A stretch of DNA of 64,000 bases, taken from contig JADHMQ010000005.1 in NCBI GenBank assembly GCA_016779935.1, positions 1 to 64,000 on the forward strand, given 5' to 3'. The notes below the pieces were generated by a model, which saw only the letters and a list, made by a program, of their open reading frames with translations, made no database searches and was not told the origin of the DNA. Source of the stretch: Flavobacteriales bacterium. Lineage in GTDB: Bacteria; Bacteroidota; Bacteroidia; Flavobacteriales; UBA7312. Below, piece after piece: positions 38,845-45,953 of the stretch. The first letter of the stretch is position 1, and each line of letters starts with the position of its first letter. The translations under genes and the position numbers were made by a program.

Positions 38845-40536
38845 ATGAAAAGACAACTTATCGAATGTGTTCCTAATATTTCTGAAGGAAGAGACACAAA
38901 AAAAATAAATGAAATTGCTTCTATTGTTGAAACAATAGATGGTGTAAAACTACTGAATGTAGATCCTGGAAAAGCTACTAATAGAACTGTCATCACTTTT
39001 GTTGGTGAACCTCAACAAGTCATCGACGCTGCATTCTTACTCATACAAAAAGCTCAATCTTTAATTGACATGAGCAAGCACAGTGGAGAACATCCTAGGA
39101 TGGGGGCTACAGACGTTTGTCCACTTGTGCCAATAGCTAATATCTCTATGGAAGACACGGCCAAATGGGCACACACACTTGGCGAACGTGTTGGCAATGA
39201 GCTTAATATTCCTGTTTACTGCTATGAAAATGCAGCAAATGAAGAGAAAAGAAGAAATTTAGCAAACTGTCGCTCTGGAGAATACGAGGGCTTAAAACAA
39301 AAGCTTGTTGATACTAACTGGAAACCTGACTTTGGACCGGCTGAATTTAACGATTCAGTGGCTCGTTCTGGAGCAACTGCTATATCAGCCAGGGATTTTT
39401 TAGTCGCTTATAACATTAACCTTAATACCACTTCTACCAGAAGAGCAAACGCTATTGCTTTCGATATACGTGAAGCTGGACGGTTTTTAAGAGAAAATAA
39501 TAATCCAGGCGGAAAATTACTAAAAGACGAAAATGGTGAACCCATCAGACAGCCAGGTTTATTCAAACACGTCAAAGGTATTGGTTGGTTTATTGAAGAA
39601 TATGGAGTAGCACAAATCTCATACAACCTCACTAATATTAATGTATCACCTCTTCACATGGTTTTTGATAAAACTTGTGAACGCTCACAAGCTAGAGGTT
39701 TAAGAGTTACTGGCTCTGAATTAGTTGGTTTAGTACCGAAAAAGGTATTAATAGATGCCGGAGTGCATTTTCTAAAAAAACAACAACGTTCTATAGGTAT
39801 TTCTGAAAAAGAAATCATGAAGATTGCAGTAAAATCACTTGGTCTTGATGAATTATCTCCATTCATATTAGAAGAAAGAGTAATCGAATATATGCTAGAG
39901 GGCACCACTAAGCAATTGGTTGACATGAACTTAGTAGATTTTGCTAACGAAACATCAAGTGAAAGCCCTGCTCCTGGCGGTGGTTCTATCTCTGCCTATT
40001 GCGGCGCTATGGGTGCTGCACTAGGTACAATGGTAGCTAATTTATCAGCACACAAAAGAGGTTGGGATGATAGATGGGAAGAGTTTTCAGATTGGGCTGA
40101 AAAAGGAATTGCATACCAAAATGAGTTGCTAAGATTAGTAGACGAAGACACCAATGCATTCAATAAAATTATGGAAGCCTTTAGACTTCCAAAAGATAGT
40201 GTTGAAGAAAAAGCATTACGCCAAAAAGCCATCCAAGATGCTACAAAGTTTGCTATACTCACACCATTTAAAGTAATGGAAACAGCTTATGATTCTATGC
40301 AGGTTATGAAGGCTATGGCAGACATTGGAAACCCAAATTCTGTTACAGATGCTGCAGTTGGTGCTTTATGTGCTAGAACGGCTGTTAGAGGAGCATTTCT
40401 GAATGTAAAAATCAATTGTGGCGACTGTGAGGACAAGCTATTTGTAAACGACATTATTGAGAAAGGACAAGCTATTATTGATAAAGCAACAGCATTAGAA
40501 AACGACATAATGAAAATGACAGAGGGTAAAATCTAG
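38845..40536 (+). CDS. ftcD: Bifunctional glutamate formimidoyltransferase / formimidoyltetrahydrofolate cyclodeaminase
   Basis: 563 residues. The N-terminal transferase half (about 1-320; IECVPNISEGRD, HSGEHPRMGATDVCPLVPI, PGLFKHVKGIGW) moves the formimino group from formiminoglutamate to tetrahydrofolate. The C-terminal cyclodeaminase half (about 345-555; FANETSSESPAPGGGSISAYC written here in part as ESPAPGGGSISAY) releases ammonia to form methenyl-THF. The fused form is typical of animals and of Bacteroidota. It ends in CTAG, which also supplies the stop of the convergent comEC gene. Transcribed with hutI. Confidence 0.94.
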   Translation: MKRQLIECVPNISEGRDTKKINEIASIVETIDGVKLLNVDPGKATNRTVITFVGEPQQVIDAAFLLIQKAQSLIDMSKHSGEHPRMGATDVCPLVPIANISMEDTAKWAHTLGERVGNELNIPVYCYENAANEEKRRNLANCRSGEYEGLKQKLVDTNWKPDFGPAEFNDSVARSGATAISARDFLVAYNINLNTTSTRRANAIAFDIREAGRFLRENNNPGGKLLKDENGEPIRQPGLFKHVKGIGWFIEEYGVAQISYNLTNINVSPLHMVFDKTCERSQARGLRVTGSELVGLVPKKVLIDAGVHFLKKQQRSIGISEKEIMKIAVKSLGLDELSPFILEERVIEYMLEGTTKQLVDMNLVDFANETSSESPAPGGGSISAYCGAMGAALGTMVANLSAHKRGWDDRWEEFSDWAEKGIAYQNELLRLVDEDTNAFNKIMEAFRLPKDSVEEKALRQKAIQDATKFAILTPFKVMETAYDSMQVMKAMADIGNPNSVTDAAVGALCARTAVRGAFLNVKINCGDCEDKLFVNDIIEKGQAIIDKATALENDIMKMTEGKI

Positions 40537-42602
40537 TTCATCAAATTTACCACCAAAGCACCATCTGTTTTAAGATTGTGGTACCTCAATTGAAGCGCAT
40601 TACATTCATCTTCTATTTTACGTGCTACATAATATGGCAATCTAGAGTCAATGATAATAGTTTTTGGCTGATAAGCCTCTAAAATATTAGTAACAGGAAA
40701 GTCAACAGACAAGATACAGTAGTCTAATTTTATTGGATTATCTATAGACTTCAATTCAAAATTATGGTCAACTATTAGTAGTTTTTGGTTTGCTAGTTGA
40801 ATGTGCGACTGTTCTTTCCAAACATATTGACTTTGAATATTAGAGTCTAAATCTACAAGCTCTCTCTCATTTAGCTTAAGGAATGCCCAATGATTATGTA
40901 AATTAAATTTTTGACTTTTTTGATTGTTAATTAATTCACTATTTGCCAAGAAAAGAGCTTTGTCTTTTTCTACAAGACCAAACACAGTATGCTTATTGAC
41001 AGAGTAAAATACTAATTGCGACCTATTCTCTCGATTTTTTTGTCCATTCCAATGAGAAAATTGCATAAGAACAATACACAGTAGTGATAATATTAAATAT
41101 TTTGAACTTTTTAAATAAATAAATAACAAGCAAAAGCCAATTGCAACATAAAAAATTACAACCTCATAAGCCTGCAAAAATAAAAATGAAGATATTGTTT
41201 GGGGTAATTCTTGTATACCCTCTAAAATAACAAATAAAATATTCAGAAAATATTTTAGAATAAGTAAAACTGGCTCACTTACAAAGGCATAATCAAACAT
41301 CAATAGATAGAAAAGACCAAAATATATAATAAGTGGTATTAGAGGAATAACTAAAATATTTGCCAATAAAAAGTAATTAGGAAATTGATGAAAATAATAT
41401 ATCCCTAAAGGAAAAGTTGCAATTTGGGCTGCCAGAGAAACACAAATCAATTGCCAAAGTGCATCAATCCATTTTGATTTAAAAAGTAAAAGAGGGTAAA
41501 TTTTAGGATAAATAGACACAATTCCCAAAACAGCTAAATACGATAATTGAAAGCCTACTTCAAAAATCATGGAAGGTTCTATAATAAGCAACAAAAATGC
41601 CGAAGCCGCTAGAGTATTGTAAATATTTGTTCGCCTTTGCATGACATCTGCTATTGCAATAAAACTAAACATGGTTGCTGCTCGCATTACGGATGGACTT
41701 AAAGAAGTAATAAAAGCATAGGACCAAAGGCAAAACAACAGAATTAACACTTTTAGTAATTTTAAAATCTGTTTTTTATTCATAAACATCAATAACTTGT
41801 TTATCAAAAGAAAAATAATCCCCACATGAAGCCCTGAAACAGCTAAAACATGAATTACACCCGATTCACTAAATGTTTGCTTTAACTCTTGACTCATTTC
41901 TGATTTATCTCCCAAAAGTAAAGCTGTACATACCGACAATTGATTGCTATTCAATTCACTTTGAGATAATATAGCTACGAGTTTATTACGAATATTATTT
42001 ACACACTTAATAATCTTATTACCCCACGCACCATTTAGTAGATTAAAGTCAGTTGAAGAAATATAAACTTGATGAGTAACATTTCTGACATTAAGATGTT
42101 TTTTATAATTGAATTGCTGAGGATTTAAGGGCAACTGAATCTCATTAGGCTTTGATGATATTAATATCCTATCCCCATATTTCAAAGAGTCTATACTTTT
42201 TTCTAAGTAAATTAATAAAACACCTTTTGTAGGCTTATTATCAACTGAAATAACTTTTGATAAAACTTTAAAGCTATTTTCTTTTTCAATAGGCTCCTCA
42301 ATACACTCAACCAATAGTATACTATCATCATTTAAAAAATGAGCAAAGTAAGAATCTTCATTTTTATCCAAAGAATATTGCACTATACACAGTCCAAACA
42401 CAACTAATAAACATGAGGAGATAATTCCAAAAAGCCAACGTAAACTGAAACTTTTAACGAAAGAATGAACAATCATTAAAAGCACTAACAAAAAAGGAAT
42501 GAGAAGATAAGTCCACTGAGTGTACAGAGAGTATGAAAAAATAATCCCAAAAATAAAGGGTATTACAAGGCGGAATAAAGGAAGTGAATTCCAAAAATGC
42601 AT
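40533..42602 (-). CDS. ComEC/Rec2-type DNA uptake channel protein
   Basis: 689 residues of membrane protein. An N-terminal DUF4131-like region with two or three helices and an OB-like beta domain (about 95-190) is followed by the Competence domain (about 215-500) with LLLGDKSEMSQELKQTFSESG written in parts (LLLGDKSEMS, GVIHVLAVSGLHVGII) and SPSVMRAATMFSF. In competent bacteria ComEC passes single-stranded DNA across the inner membrane. The last ~180 residues correspond in position to the metallo-beta-lactamase domain but lack HxHxDH. Whether this species is naturally competent is unknown. Stop overlaps ftcD by four bases. Confidence 0.88.
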   Translation of the reverse strand: MHFWNSLPLFRLVIPFIFGIIFSYSLYTQWTYLLIPFLLVLLMIVHSFVKSFSLRWLFGIISSCLLVVFGLCIVQYSLDKNEDSYFAHFLNDDSILLVECIEEPIEKENSFKVLSKVISVDNKPTKGVLLIYLEKSIDSLKYGDRILISSKPNEIQLPLNPQQFNYKKHLNVRNVTHQVYISSTDFNLLNGAWGNKIIKCVNNIRNKLVAILSQSELNSNQLSVCTALLLGDKSEMSQELKQTFSESGVIHVLAVSGLHVGIIFLLINKLLMFMNKKQILKLLKVLILLFCLWSYAFITSLSPSVMRAATMFSFIAIADVMQRRTNIYNTLAASAFLLLIIEPSMIFEVGFQLSYLAVLGIVSIYPKIYPLLLFKSKWIDALWQLICVSLAAQIATFPLGIYYFHQFPNYFLLANILVIPLIPLIIYFGLFYLLMFDYAFVSEPVLLILKYFLNILFVILEGIQELPQTISSFLFLQAYEVVIFYVAIGFCLLFIYLKSSKYLILSLLCIVLMQFSHWNGQKNRENRSQLVFYSVNKHTVFGLVEKDKALFLANSELINNQKSQKFNLHNHWAFLKLNERELVDLDSNIQSQYVWKEQSHIQLANQKLLIVDHNFELKSIDNPIKLDYCILSVDFPVTNILEAYQPKTIIIDSRLPYYVARKIEDECNALQLRYHNLKTDGALVVNLMN

Positions 42603-42633
42603 GGCTTTTATTTAAAGCCACAAAATACTAAAA

Positions 42634-44827: not shown

Positions 44828-45331
44828 ATGTCAAATGTAAGGATACCGAGAAGGAGATACAGTTCAAAAATGTTGAAAAGGGCAATGAATTTATTTCCGC
44901 CCCTATTAGTAAACAGAATAAAAATAGCCGAAGCCGATGAGGAATTTAAAAACCTAAGAGTTACTGTAAAATACTCATGGCTCAATAAAAATATTCAGAA
45001 ATCAATTTTTGGAGGGAGTATATTCAGCGCAATAGACCCATTTTATGCCGTCATGTATTGGCAAATATTCAACTCTAAAAATATACCGATGCTAATTTGG
45101 ATAAAAAAAGCTGAGATAGATTATATTAAAACAGCTACATCAAATTTACATATGGATTTTAAACTAAGCGAAAATGACATCGAAAATGCTATTACTGCAT
45201 TAAAAGAAAATGAAAAACATGAAGTATGGCATACTATTAAAGTGTTTAACATACACAATGAATTATGTGCCGAATCTAGAGTACTAGTATACATCCGCAA
45301 TAAATATGATCACCCTTTAAATAATTTATAA
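44828..45331 (+). CDS. DUF4442 hotdog-fold protein (thioesterase-like)
   Basis: 167 residues from ATG 44828; a start further upstream would run over the promoter box and the surE leader. NLFPPLLVNRIKIAEADEEF at the N-terminus and GGSIFSAIDPFYAVMYWQIF in the middle match DUF4442, a family with the hotdog fold of acyl-CoA thioesterases. A catalytic Asp lies at the expected place in AIDPFY. Substrate unknown; cytoplasmic. Monocistronic. Confidence 0.8.
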   Translation: MSNVRIPRRRYSSKMLKRAMNLFPPLLVNRIKIAEADEEFKNLRVTVKYSWLNKNIQKSIFGGSIFSAIDPFYAVMYWQIFNSKNIPMLIWIKKAEIDYIKTATSNLHMDFKLSENDIENAITALKENEKHEVWHTIKVFNIHNELCAESRVLVYIRNKYDHPLNNL

Positions 45332-45371
45332 TTTTTTTTCGATTTTAAGTAAACAGAAATAAAAGTTTATA

Positions 45372-45379
45372 TATCTTTG
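45372..45379 (+). promoter_or_regulatory. Putative -7 box (TATCTTTG) of the small RNA
   Basis: TATCTTTG lies 41 bases after the DUF4442 stop and starts a short terminated unit with no reading frame. No -33 TTG was found at the usual spacing. Confidence 0.5.
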
Positions 45380-45383
45380 TTGT

Positions 45384-45464
45384 TCCCATTAGGGAGAGGG
45401 AAGTAAGTTTTTTCATGGCTTTAAGGGGCTGCCCGAGTAGAAATACTCGGGTAGCTTTTTTTTT
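45384..45464 (+). ncRNA. Putative small non-coding RNA of about 80 nucleotides
   Basis: Between a -7 box and a very strong terminator lies a compact segment with no plausible gene. It begins near GTTCCCATTAGGGAGAGG, where TCCC-ATTA-GGGA can form a small hairpin, continues through an unpaired T-rich middle (AAGTTTTTTCATGG) and ends with a 12-pair GAAA-capped hairpin and T9. The GC content of the two ends is much higher than the surroundings, as is typical of structured RNA in AT-rich genomes. Size and context would suit a 6S-like or other abundant regulatory RNA of Flavobacteria, but I cannot assign a family. It could alternatively be a premature-terminated leader of the DUF2147 gene, whose start lies 55 bases further on. 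Confidence 0.55.
45428..45464 (+). terminator. Strong intrinsic terminator with GAAA tetraloop
   Basis: GCTGCCCGAGTA-GAAA-TACTCGGGTAGC forms 12 consecutive pairs (one G-T) capped by a GNRA tetraloop and is followed by nine T. It is the most stable hairpin noticed in the window. Confidence 0.9.
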
Positions 45465-45518
45465 ATACCCTTGATTCCTCAAATAAAAATCTTAACTTGC
45501 CTGAAAAACAAGTACATT

Positions 45519-45953
45519 ATGAAATCTATAACTTTATTATTTGGGCTATTATTTAGCCTATCAACTTTTGCTCAATCTGATGCTATTTTGGGTGAGTGGT
45601 ATACAGCTGATAAAGACGCTGTTGTAACTATATTTTCTGAAGGAGATTCTTTTTCAGGGAAAACCACATGGATGAAAGAGCCTAATGACAGTAAGGGCAA
45701 TCCAAAGTTAGATAAAGAAAATCCAGATGAGGATTTAAGAAGCAGAAAACGTATGGGGCTAAAAATTATGCAAGATTTTGTATATAAAGGAGATAATGTC
45801 TGGGAAGATGGGAAGATATACAAGCCTTCTAATGGCAAAACATACGGTGGAACTGCCACTCTAGTTAATAAGAATACTCTTGAGCTCGAAGGTTATTTAA
45901 TAAGTCTTCCATTCATTGGAAAAACTTCTACATGGACTAGAAAAACTGACTAA
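45519..45953 (+). CDS. DUF2147 family secreted protein
   Basis: 144 residues from ATG 45519; an in-frame TTG at 45471 gives an extension without signal-peptide character. A signal peptide (MKSITLLFGLLFSLSTFAQ) precedes the DUF2147 core: ILGEWYTADKDAVVTIF, DLRSRKRMGLKIMQDF and WEDGKIYKPSNGKTYGGTA. The family is a small periplasmic or surface beta-barrel protein with no known function. Monocistronic, just downstream of the putative small RNA. Confidence 0.87.
   Translation: MKSITLLFGLLFSLSTFAQSDAILGEWYTADKDAVVTIFSEGDSFSGKTTWMKEPNDSKGNPKLDKENPDEDLRSRKRMGLKIMQDFVYKGDNVWEDGKIYKPSNGKTYGGTATLVNKNTLELEGYLISLPFIGKTSTWTRKTD

Follow-up and report, generated by a model that had tools for sequence, protein, structure and literature searches.

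Between the genes for a DUF4442 protein and a DUF2147 protein lies a unit (45362-45464, plus strand) that is very probably a genuine gene for a small regulatory RNA, not described before, in a family of uncultured marine bacteria. The reading that we favor, with a probability of roughly 0.6, is that it encodes an independently transcribed, trans-acting small RNA of ~80 nt that masks start codons in the manner of GibS and lowers translation. The unit belongs to a window of 64,000 nt, the whole stretch of DNA analyzed, in which the following features are relevant.

44828-45331, plus strand: upstream neighbor, gene of a DUF4442 protein (Pfam PF14539)
45362-45381, plus strand: conserved promoter-like zone, with an exact −7 box TATCTTTG at 45372-45379 and no clear −33 element
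45383-45464, plus strand: small RNA gene with a predicted ~80-nt transcript, its 5' end inferred from the box and its 3' end from the T run; fold z −5.1; six syntenic copies
45383-45428, plus strand: invariant core, 46/46 nt shared without change by six genomes from three genera; most of it precedes the terminator
45384-45395, plus strand: 5' hairpin TCCC-ATTA-GGGA (predicted fold), invariant in six genomes
45400-45425, plus strand: proposed seed GAAGTAAGTTTTTTCATGGCTTTAAG, reverse complement CTTAAAGCC-ATG-AAA-AAA-CTT-ACTTC; excess pairing with start regions relative to shuffles and intergenic windows
45423-45464, plus strand: intrinsic terminator, with a 17-pair stem including G-U, a GAAA loop and T9
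45519-45953, plus strand: downstream neighbor, gene of a DUF2147 protein with a signal peptide (Pfam PF09917)
42570-42612, minus strand: predicted target (prediction only), start region of comEC (CDS 40533-42602; Pfam Competence)

Anatomy and conservation of the gene

The G+C content of the unit is 0.43, that of the window 0.34 and that of the flanking intergenic DNA 0.23, and no plus-strand open reading frame of at least 60 amino acids was found within it. As RNA, the segment 45382-45464 folds at −34.7 kcal/mol versus −20.0 ± 2.9 kcal/mol in shuffles (z −5.1; 0/200), an energy that comes mostly from the terminator. The terminator stem occupies 45423-45460 and the T9 run 45456-45464; a scan of 20 kb turned up 10 terminator-like sites, no more than chance would give, and this one is the strongest of them. 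The predicted fold contains only two stable hairpins, which are separate and leave about 30 nt open and weakly structured between them, and the ends of the RNA do not pair with each other. The box is an exact match to the pattern TAnnTTTG. The window contains 112 8-mers of this type, with about 97 expected by chance, so the box carries weight only because its position is conserved. The anatomy described in the initial annotation, namely a perfect −7 box, a GC-enriched segment without a reading frame, the TCCC-ATTA-GGGA hairpin, a GAAA-capped terminator with nine T and a strong RNA-like structure, was thus recovered in full, with 17 pairs counted in the stem, including G-U, instead of 12.

BLAST showed that the gene is present as a single copy in its own genome, and copies 93 to 99% identical were found in five other genomes of the same taxonomic family, which makes six genomes from three genera. 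The gene context DUF4442/RNA/DUF2147 is common to all six. The sequence of the core that is identical in all of them is GAAGUAAGUUUUUUCAUGGCUUUAAG. Between genera, the intergenic 50 nt on either side are 37 to 59% identical, and the last 300 nt of the DUF4442 gene are 56 to 67% identical. This conservation, together with the conserved box, the synteny and the lack of an Rfam match, supports the earlier proposal of an unannotated small RNA, and the unit is very probably under strong sequence-level selection as an RNA gene. The search for covariation that had been suggested met too few changes, with one varying pair in the terminator stem (A-U, G-U or G-C among the copies); the 5' hairpin, being invariant in all six genomes, provides no covariation evidence. 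The initial annotation had recorded neither the extreme conservation nor two further features of the unit, the core being antisense to gene starts and a minus-strand ATG frame.

The core as antisense of start regions

The invariant core is antisense to a start region of the form CUUAAAGCC-AUG-AAA-AAA-CUU-ACUUC. This idea came from three weak matches of the core in its own genome (BLAST; C9, C2 and C4), which were rejected as extra copies: C9 lies inside a gene, and C2 and C4 are the starts, on the opposite strand, of genes opening with MKK.

About 95% of the own genome, read in stretches, gave 1.59 Mb with 1457 predicted genes, and the core was paired with 1364 start regions (−30 to +30), whose start sites came from a simple prediction script. 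A positional weight matrix built from start regions proved too blurred, given that 542 of 2979 intergenic ATGs scored as well as the antisense site, and pairing energy was therefore used instead. Duplexes of −20 kcal/mol or stronger were obtained with 30 start regions, compared with a mean of 4.6 (maximum 18) for 100 dinucleotide-shuffled cores and with 8 gene-interior windows. When 240 GC-matched intergenic windows served as the query, the mean was 2.4 start regions and none reached 30. At −18 kcal/mol the contrast with gene interiors is gone (65 start regions versus 58), but that with the shuffles (mean of 15) stays.

In most of the strongest duplexes, CAU lies in register on AUG. Outside start regions, 72 kb of intergenic DNA contain a single occurrence of CATGAAAAAAC. 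Shuffling of the GGCUUUAAG flank with UUUUUUCAU kept led to loss of the strong pairs (0/40); shuffling of the 5' flank of the core did not, and this 5' part shows no excess pairing. The conserved core region is complementary to several mRNAs beyond chance, with much of the conserved pairing owed to AUG-AAA-AAA.

Predicted targets

By a simple ad hoc rule, a signal-peptide-like N-terminus is found in 57% of the genes pairing at −18 kcal/mol or stronger and in 21% of the rest, an enrichment that follows from the MKK opening and is therefore not independent evidence. Pairing was also compared across 662 orthologue pairs between the own genome and genome G008. It reaches −16 or stronger in both genomes for 18 of them versus 3.9 for shuffles (0/220). 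Flank shuffles retaining UUUUUUCAU do equally well, so that the bulk of the conserved-pairing signal is conserved AUG-AAA-AAA, which is kept in start regions for coding reasons.

Three single genes stand out as the best conserved target candidates: a DUF2851 gene, dprA and comEC. The predicted duplexes reach −26.6 in the own genome, −24.4 in G008 and −22.8 in G006 for the DUF2851 gene, and −21.9 in the own genome, −20.7 in G007, −20.6 in G006 and −18.4 in G008 for dprA. For comEC, which ranks 3rd of 1364, the values are −24.7 in the own genome and −24.8 in G008. Its start, at 42602 on the minus strand, lies 2.8 kb from the small RNA, and its start region is nearly identical in G008, where the protein is 48% identical. 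The flavobacterium Riemerella requires both comEC and dprA for transformation (PMC8459023). This competence grouping was spotted after the fact, and the competence reading is weakened by recA, ssb, ruvB and radC, which are not strong predicted targets in pairing with the core.

The comEC leader contains a hairpin of its own, TGTGGCTTT-AAATA-AAAGCCATG (42600-42622, minus strand), which encloses the start codon. Its 5' arm resembles the small RNA seed CATGGCTTT, and the arms TGTGGC/GCCATG are kept in G008. This hairpin could explain the conservation of that leader. In genome G000, GCC directly before ATG is over-represented (13 genes versus about 4 to 5 expected), the genes concerned including comEC, dprA, recG, a PolB-type exonuclease and a Crp-like regulator.

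Proposed mode of action

Transcription of the small RNA would start just after the −7 box and give an RNA with a short 5' hairpin, a weakly structured core whose sequence selection keeps identical, and a strong terminator at the 3' end. The UUUUUUCAUGGCUUUAAG portion of the core, aided by the upstream GAAGUAAG, would pair antiparallel with mRNA start regions, so that CAU would face AUG and U6 the lysine codons AAA AAA. This would cover the start codon together with the A-rich leader that takes the place of a Shine-Dalgarno sequence in these bacteria, and 30S loading would be blocked, so that repression is the expected sign of regulation. Shine-Dalgarno sequences are naturally absent from the mRNAs of Bacteroidota, where initiation depends on how the mRNA is structured and on the bases near the start codon (PMC6847099). 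Because of this dependence, covering the leader, the AUG and the first codons would be a natural block to initiation. The likely targets would comprise a wide range of genes with signal peptides (MKK...) plus a small number of strong matches, such as comEC, dprA and the DUF2851 gene. That the RNA is a generic anti-start-codon, complementary to an idealized leader-AUG-AAA-AAA start of its lineage, by which a whole class of exported proteins is lowered together with the DNA-uptake genes comEC and dprA in a global post-transcriptional switch, is a version of this model that we regard as doubtful.

Start-codon masking is favored by the 46/46 identity of the core while the flanks diverge, by the synteny, by the excess pairing and by the strong predicted pairing that comEC, dprA and DUF2851 retain in relatives. 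Against it stand the contrast with gene interiors that is gone at −18, the orthologue signal driven by UUUUUUCAU, the G004 copy without UUUUUUCAU and the lack of a copy in G009. A serious, though considerably less probable, alternative is that the small RNA is real and trans-acting and its core binds something else, either a protein or one or two mRNAs off the start codon, in which case the likeness to starts would arise incidentally from the U-richness of the core and the AT-richness of the genome. The invariance of the core does extend past the U6CAU block and takes in the 5' part without excess pairing, the conserved targets owe much to AUG-AAA-AAA, and the copy in G004 retains GAAGTAAG...TTTT without TTTTTTCAT. 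However, no GC-matched intergenic window or dinucleotide-shuffled core equals the start-region matching at −20 kcal/mol, and the GGCUUUAAG flank adds strong pairs, both of which count against this alternative.

It is improbable that no free RNA is made and that the unit is the 3' end of the DUF4442 mRNA, consisting of a terminator and a conserved 3' untranslated region (UTR), or a small RNA derived from that 3' UTR. Situated about 90 nt past the stop of DUF4442 and in the same orientation, the terminator may also serve the DUF4442 mRNA. Nevertheless, the position of the box is conserved with the core, the 20 nt before the core being 95 to 100% identical in four relatives and 70% in G002, whereas the DNA further upstream is 37 to 51% identical between genera, and a 46-nt invariant core is not needed by a terminator alone. 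The initial annotation had named this origin, along with conservation limited to the terminator stem, as grounds for abandoning the small RNA; the alignment across genomes places the conservation well beyond the stem.

The unit could also encode a minus-strand micro-protein (MKKLTSLSLMG...), for which we see very little chance. An ATG frame is present in 6/6 genomes with its first 11 codons identical, yet its length ranges from 21 to 32 codons, its C-termini are unrelated, its conserved part has no synonymous change, and the T run of the terminator and the box serve the other strand. The frame exists because the core is antisense to gene starts. Given its changing length and C-terminus, the absence of synonymous change and the lack of a plus-strand open reading frame of at least 60 amino acids, protein-coding constraint cannot explain the conservation.

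Relation to known RNAs

The only Rfam 15 matches above the gathering cutoffs in the window are three tRNAs, and none is at the small RNA. The cmscan run proposed in the initial annotation, over 45320-45560, did not list 6S-Flavo (RF01685) at E values up to 10. That no 6S-Flavo match was obtained across the own genome carries no weight, as the controls gave no matches either. A 6S-like RNA binding RNA polymerase has a negligible probability: the unit does specify a conserved, moderately sized intergenic RNA with strong structure, and 6S-Flavo too is an intergenic structured RNA of Flavobacteria, but 6S is a long bulged rod, whereas the RNA here is only about 80 nt, runs from a short hairpin through an open core to a terminator, and has neither a long helix with a central bubble nor ends that pair with each other. 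Of the two identities suggested earlier, 6S-like RNA or new family, the latter is the one that stands.

The closest precedent in mode of action is GibS of Bacteroides thetaiotaomicron, an intergenic trans-acting RNA of Bacteroidota for which experiments showed that a conserved single-stranded seed pairs over the start codons of mRNAs that lack a Shine-Dalgarno sequence, with repression as the result (PMC7366714). Compared by description, GibS belongs to another bacterial order and another gene context, so the likeness is in mode of action only; the seed here is located between hairpin and terminator, carries U6CAU and fits a whole class of starts. Rfp18 of Flavobacterium is a conserved small RNA of Flavobacteriales whose predicted partners are mRNAs for secreted proteins; it is needed for protease expression, and its deletion lowers two protease mRNAs (PMC9723704). 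Its predicted pairing region is a third stem-loop (PMC9723704); the RNA here has only two stable hairpins.

The unit has a promoter-like zone, a terminator and conserved sequence, as an independent intergenic gene would, with transcription predicted. We file it as a new family of a known kind, the trans-acting base-pairing RNAs, distinct from 6S. Enterobacterial small RNAs of the RybB and MicA type, which depend on Hfq, likewise use one seed for many exported-protein mRNAs near the start codon; no homology is claimed, and the RybB score at the unit (12.6 bits versus a gathering cutoff of 40) is at chance level.

Few trans-acting small RNAs have been characterized in Bacteroidota, where the classic idea of Shine-Dalgarno masking is not applicable. 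The small RNA would be a clear case in marine Flavobacteriales of a seed that is identical across genera and is predicted to target the start codon, along with the poly-lysine beginning, of genes with signal peptides. Confirmation would make it a new RNA family and would suggest that one RNA can address a whole class of start regions.

Extent of the family

A covariance model (R1) and BLAST were run over 395 genomes of the order, and no further convincing members were found among them. Matches of R1 in G188, G218 and G019 (33 to 37 bits) were rejected as homologues, as they correspond to terminators in the 3' UTR of a gene whose product has a T9SS-like C-terminus. Genome G004 carries a diverged copy at the syntenic place (L174 = L044, about 2028-2130; 16 bits), in which GAAGTAAGTAAGTAAGTTTT and GAAGTAAG...TTTT are kept, TTTTTTCAT and UUUUUUCAU are missing and the terminator is weaker; it looks like a relaxed or retargeted version of the small RNA. 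In G009 both neighbor genes are present with no recognizable copy between them. G005 has many ambiguous bases at the expected site, lacks DUF4442 and shows an apparent terminator remnant. The small RNA is not universal even within its own family.

Two other units came to light. At 1501-1564 of L140 (G051, a genome from another family) lies a small promoter-hairpin-terminator unit, TTGTTCCCTTAAGGGGGAGGGAACTAATT...; it resembles the 5' half of the small RNA, sharing TTGTTCCCTTAAGGGGGAGGGAACTAA, without the seed and without synteny. In three genomes of genus g14 (L135, L137 and L138), a secreted multidomain gene is followed by a conserved 3' UTR, GAAGTAAGTTAATTCTTAATATTAAGAAG, and a terminator.
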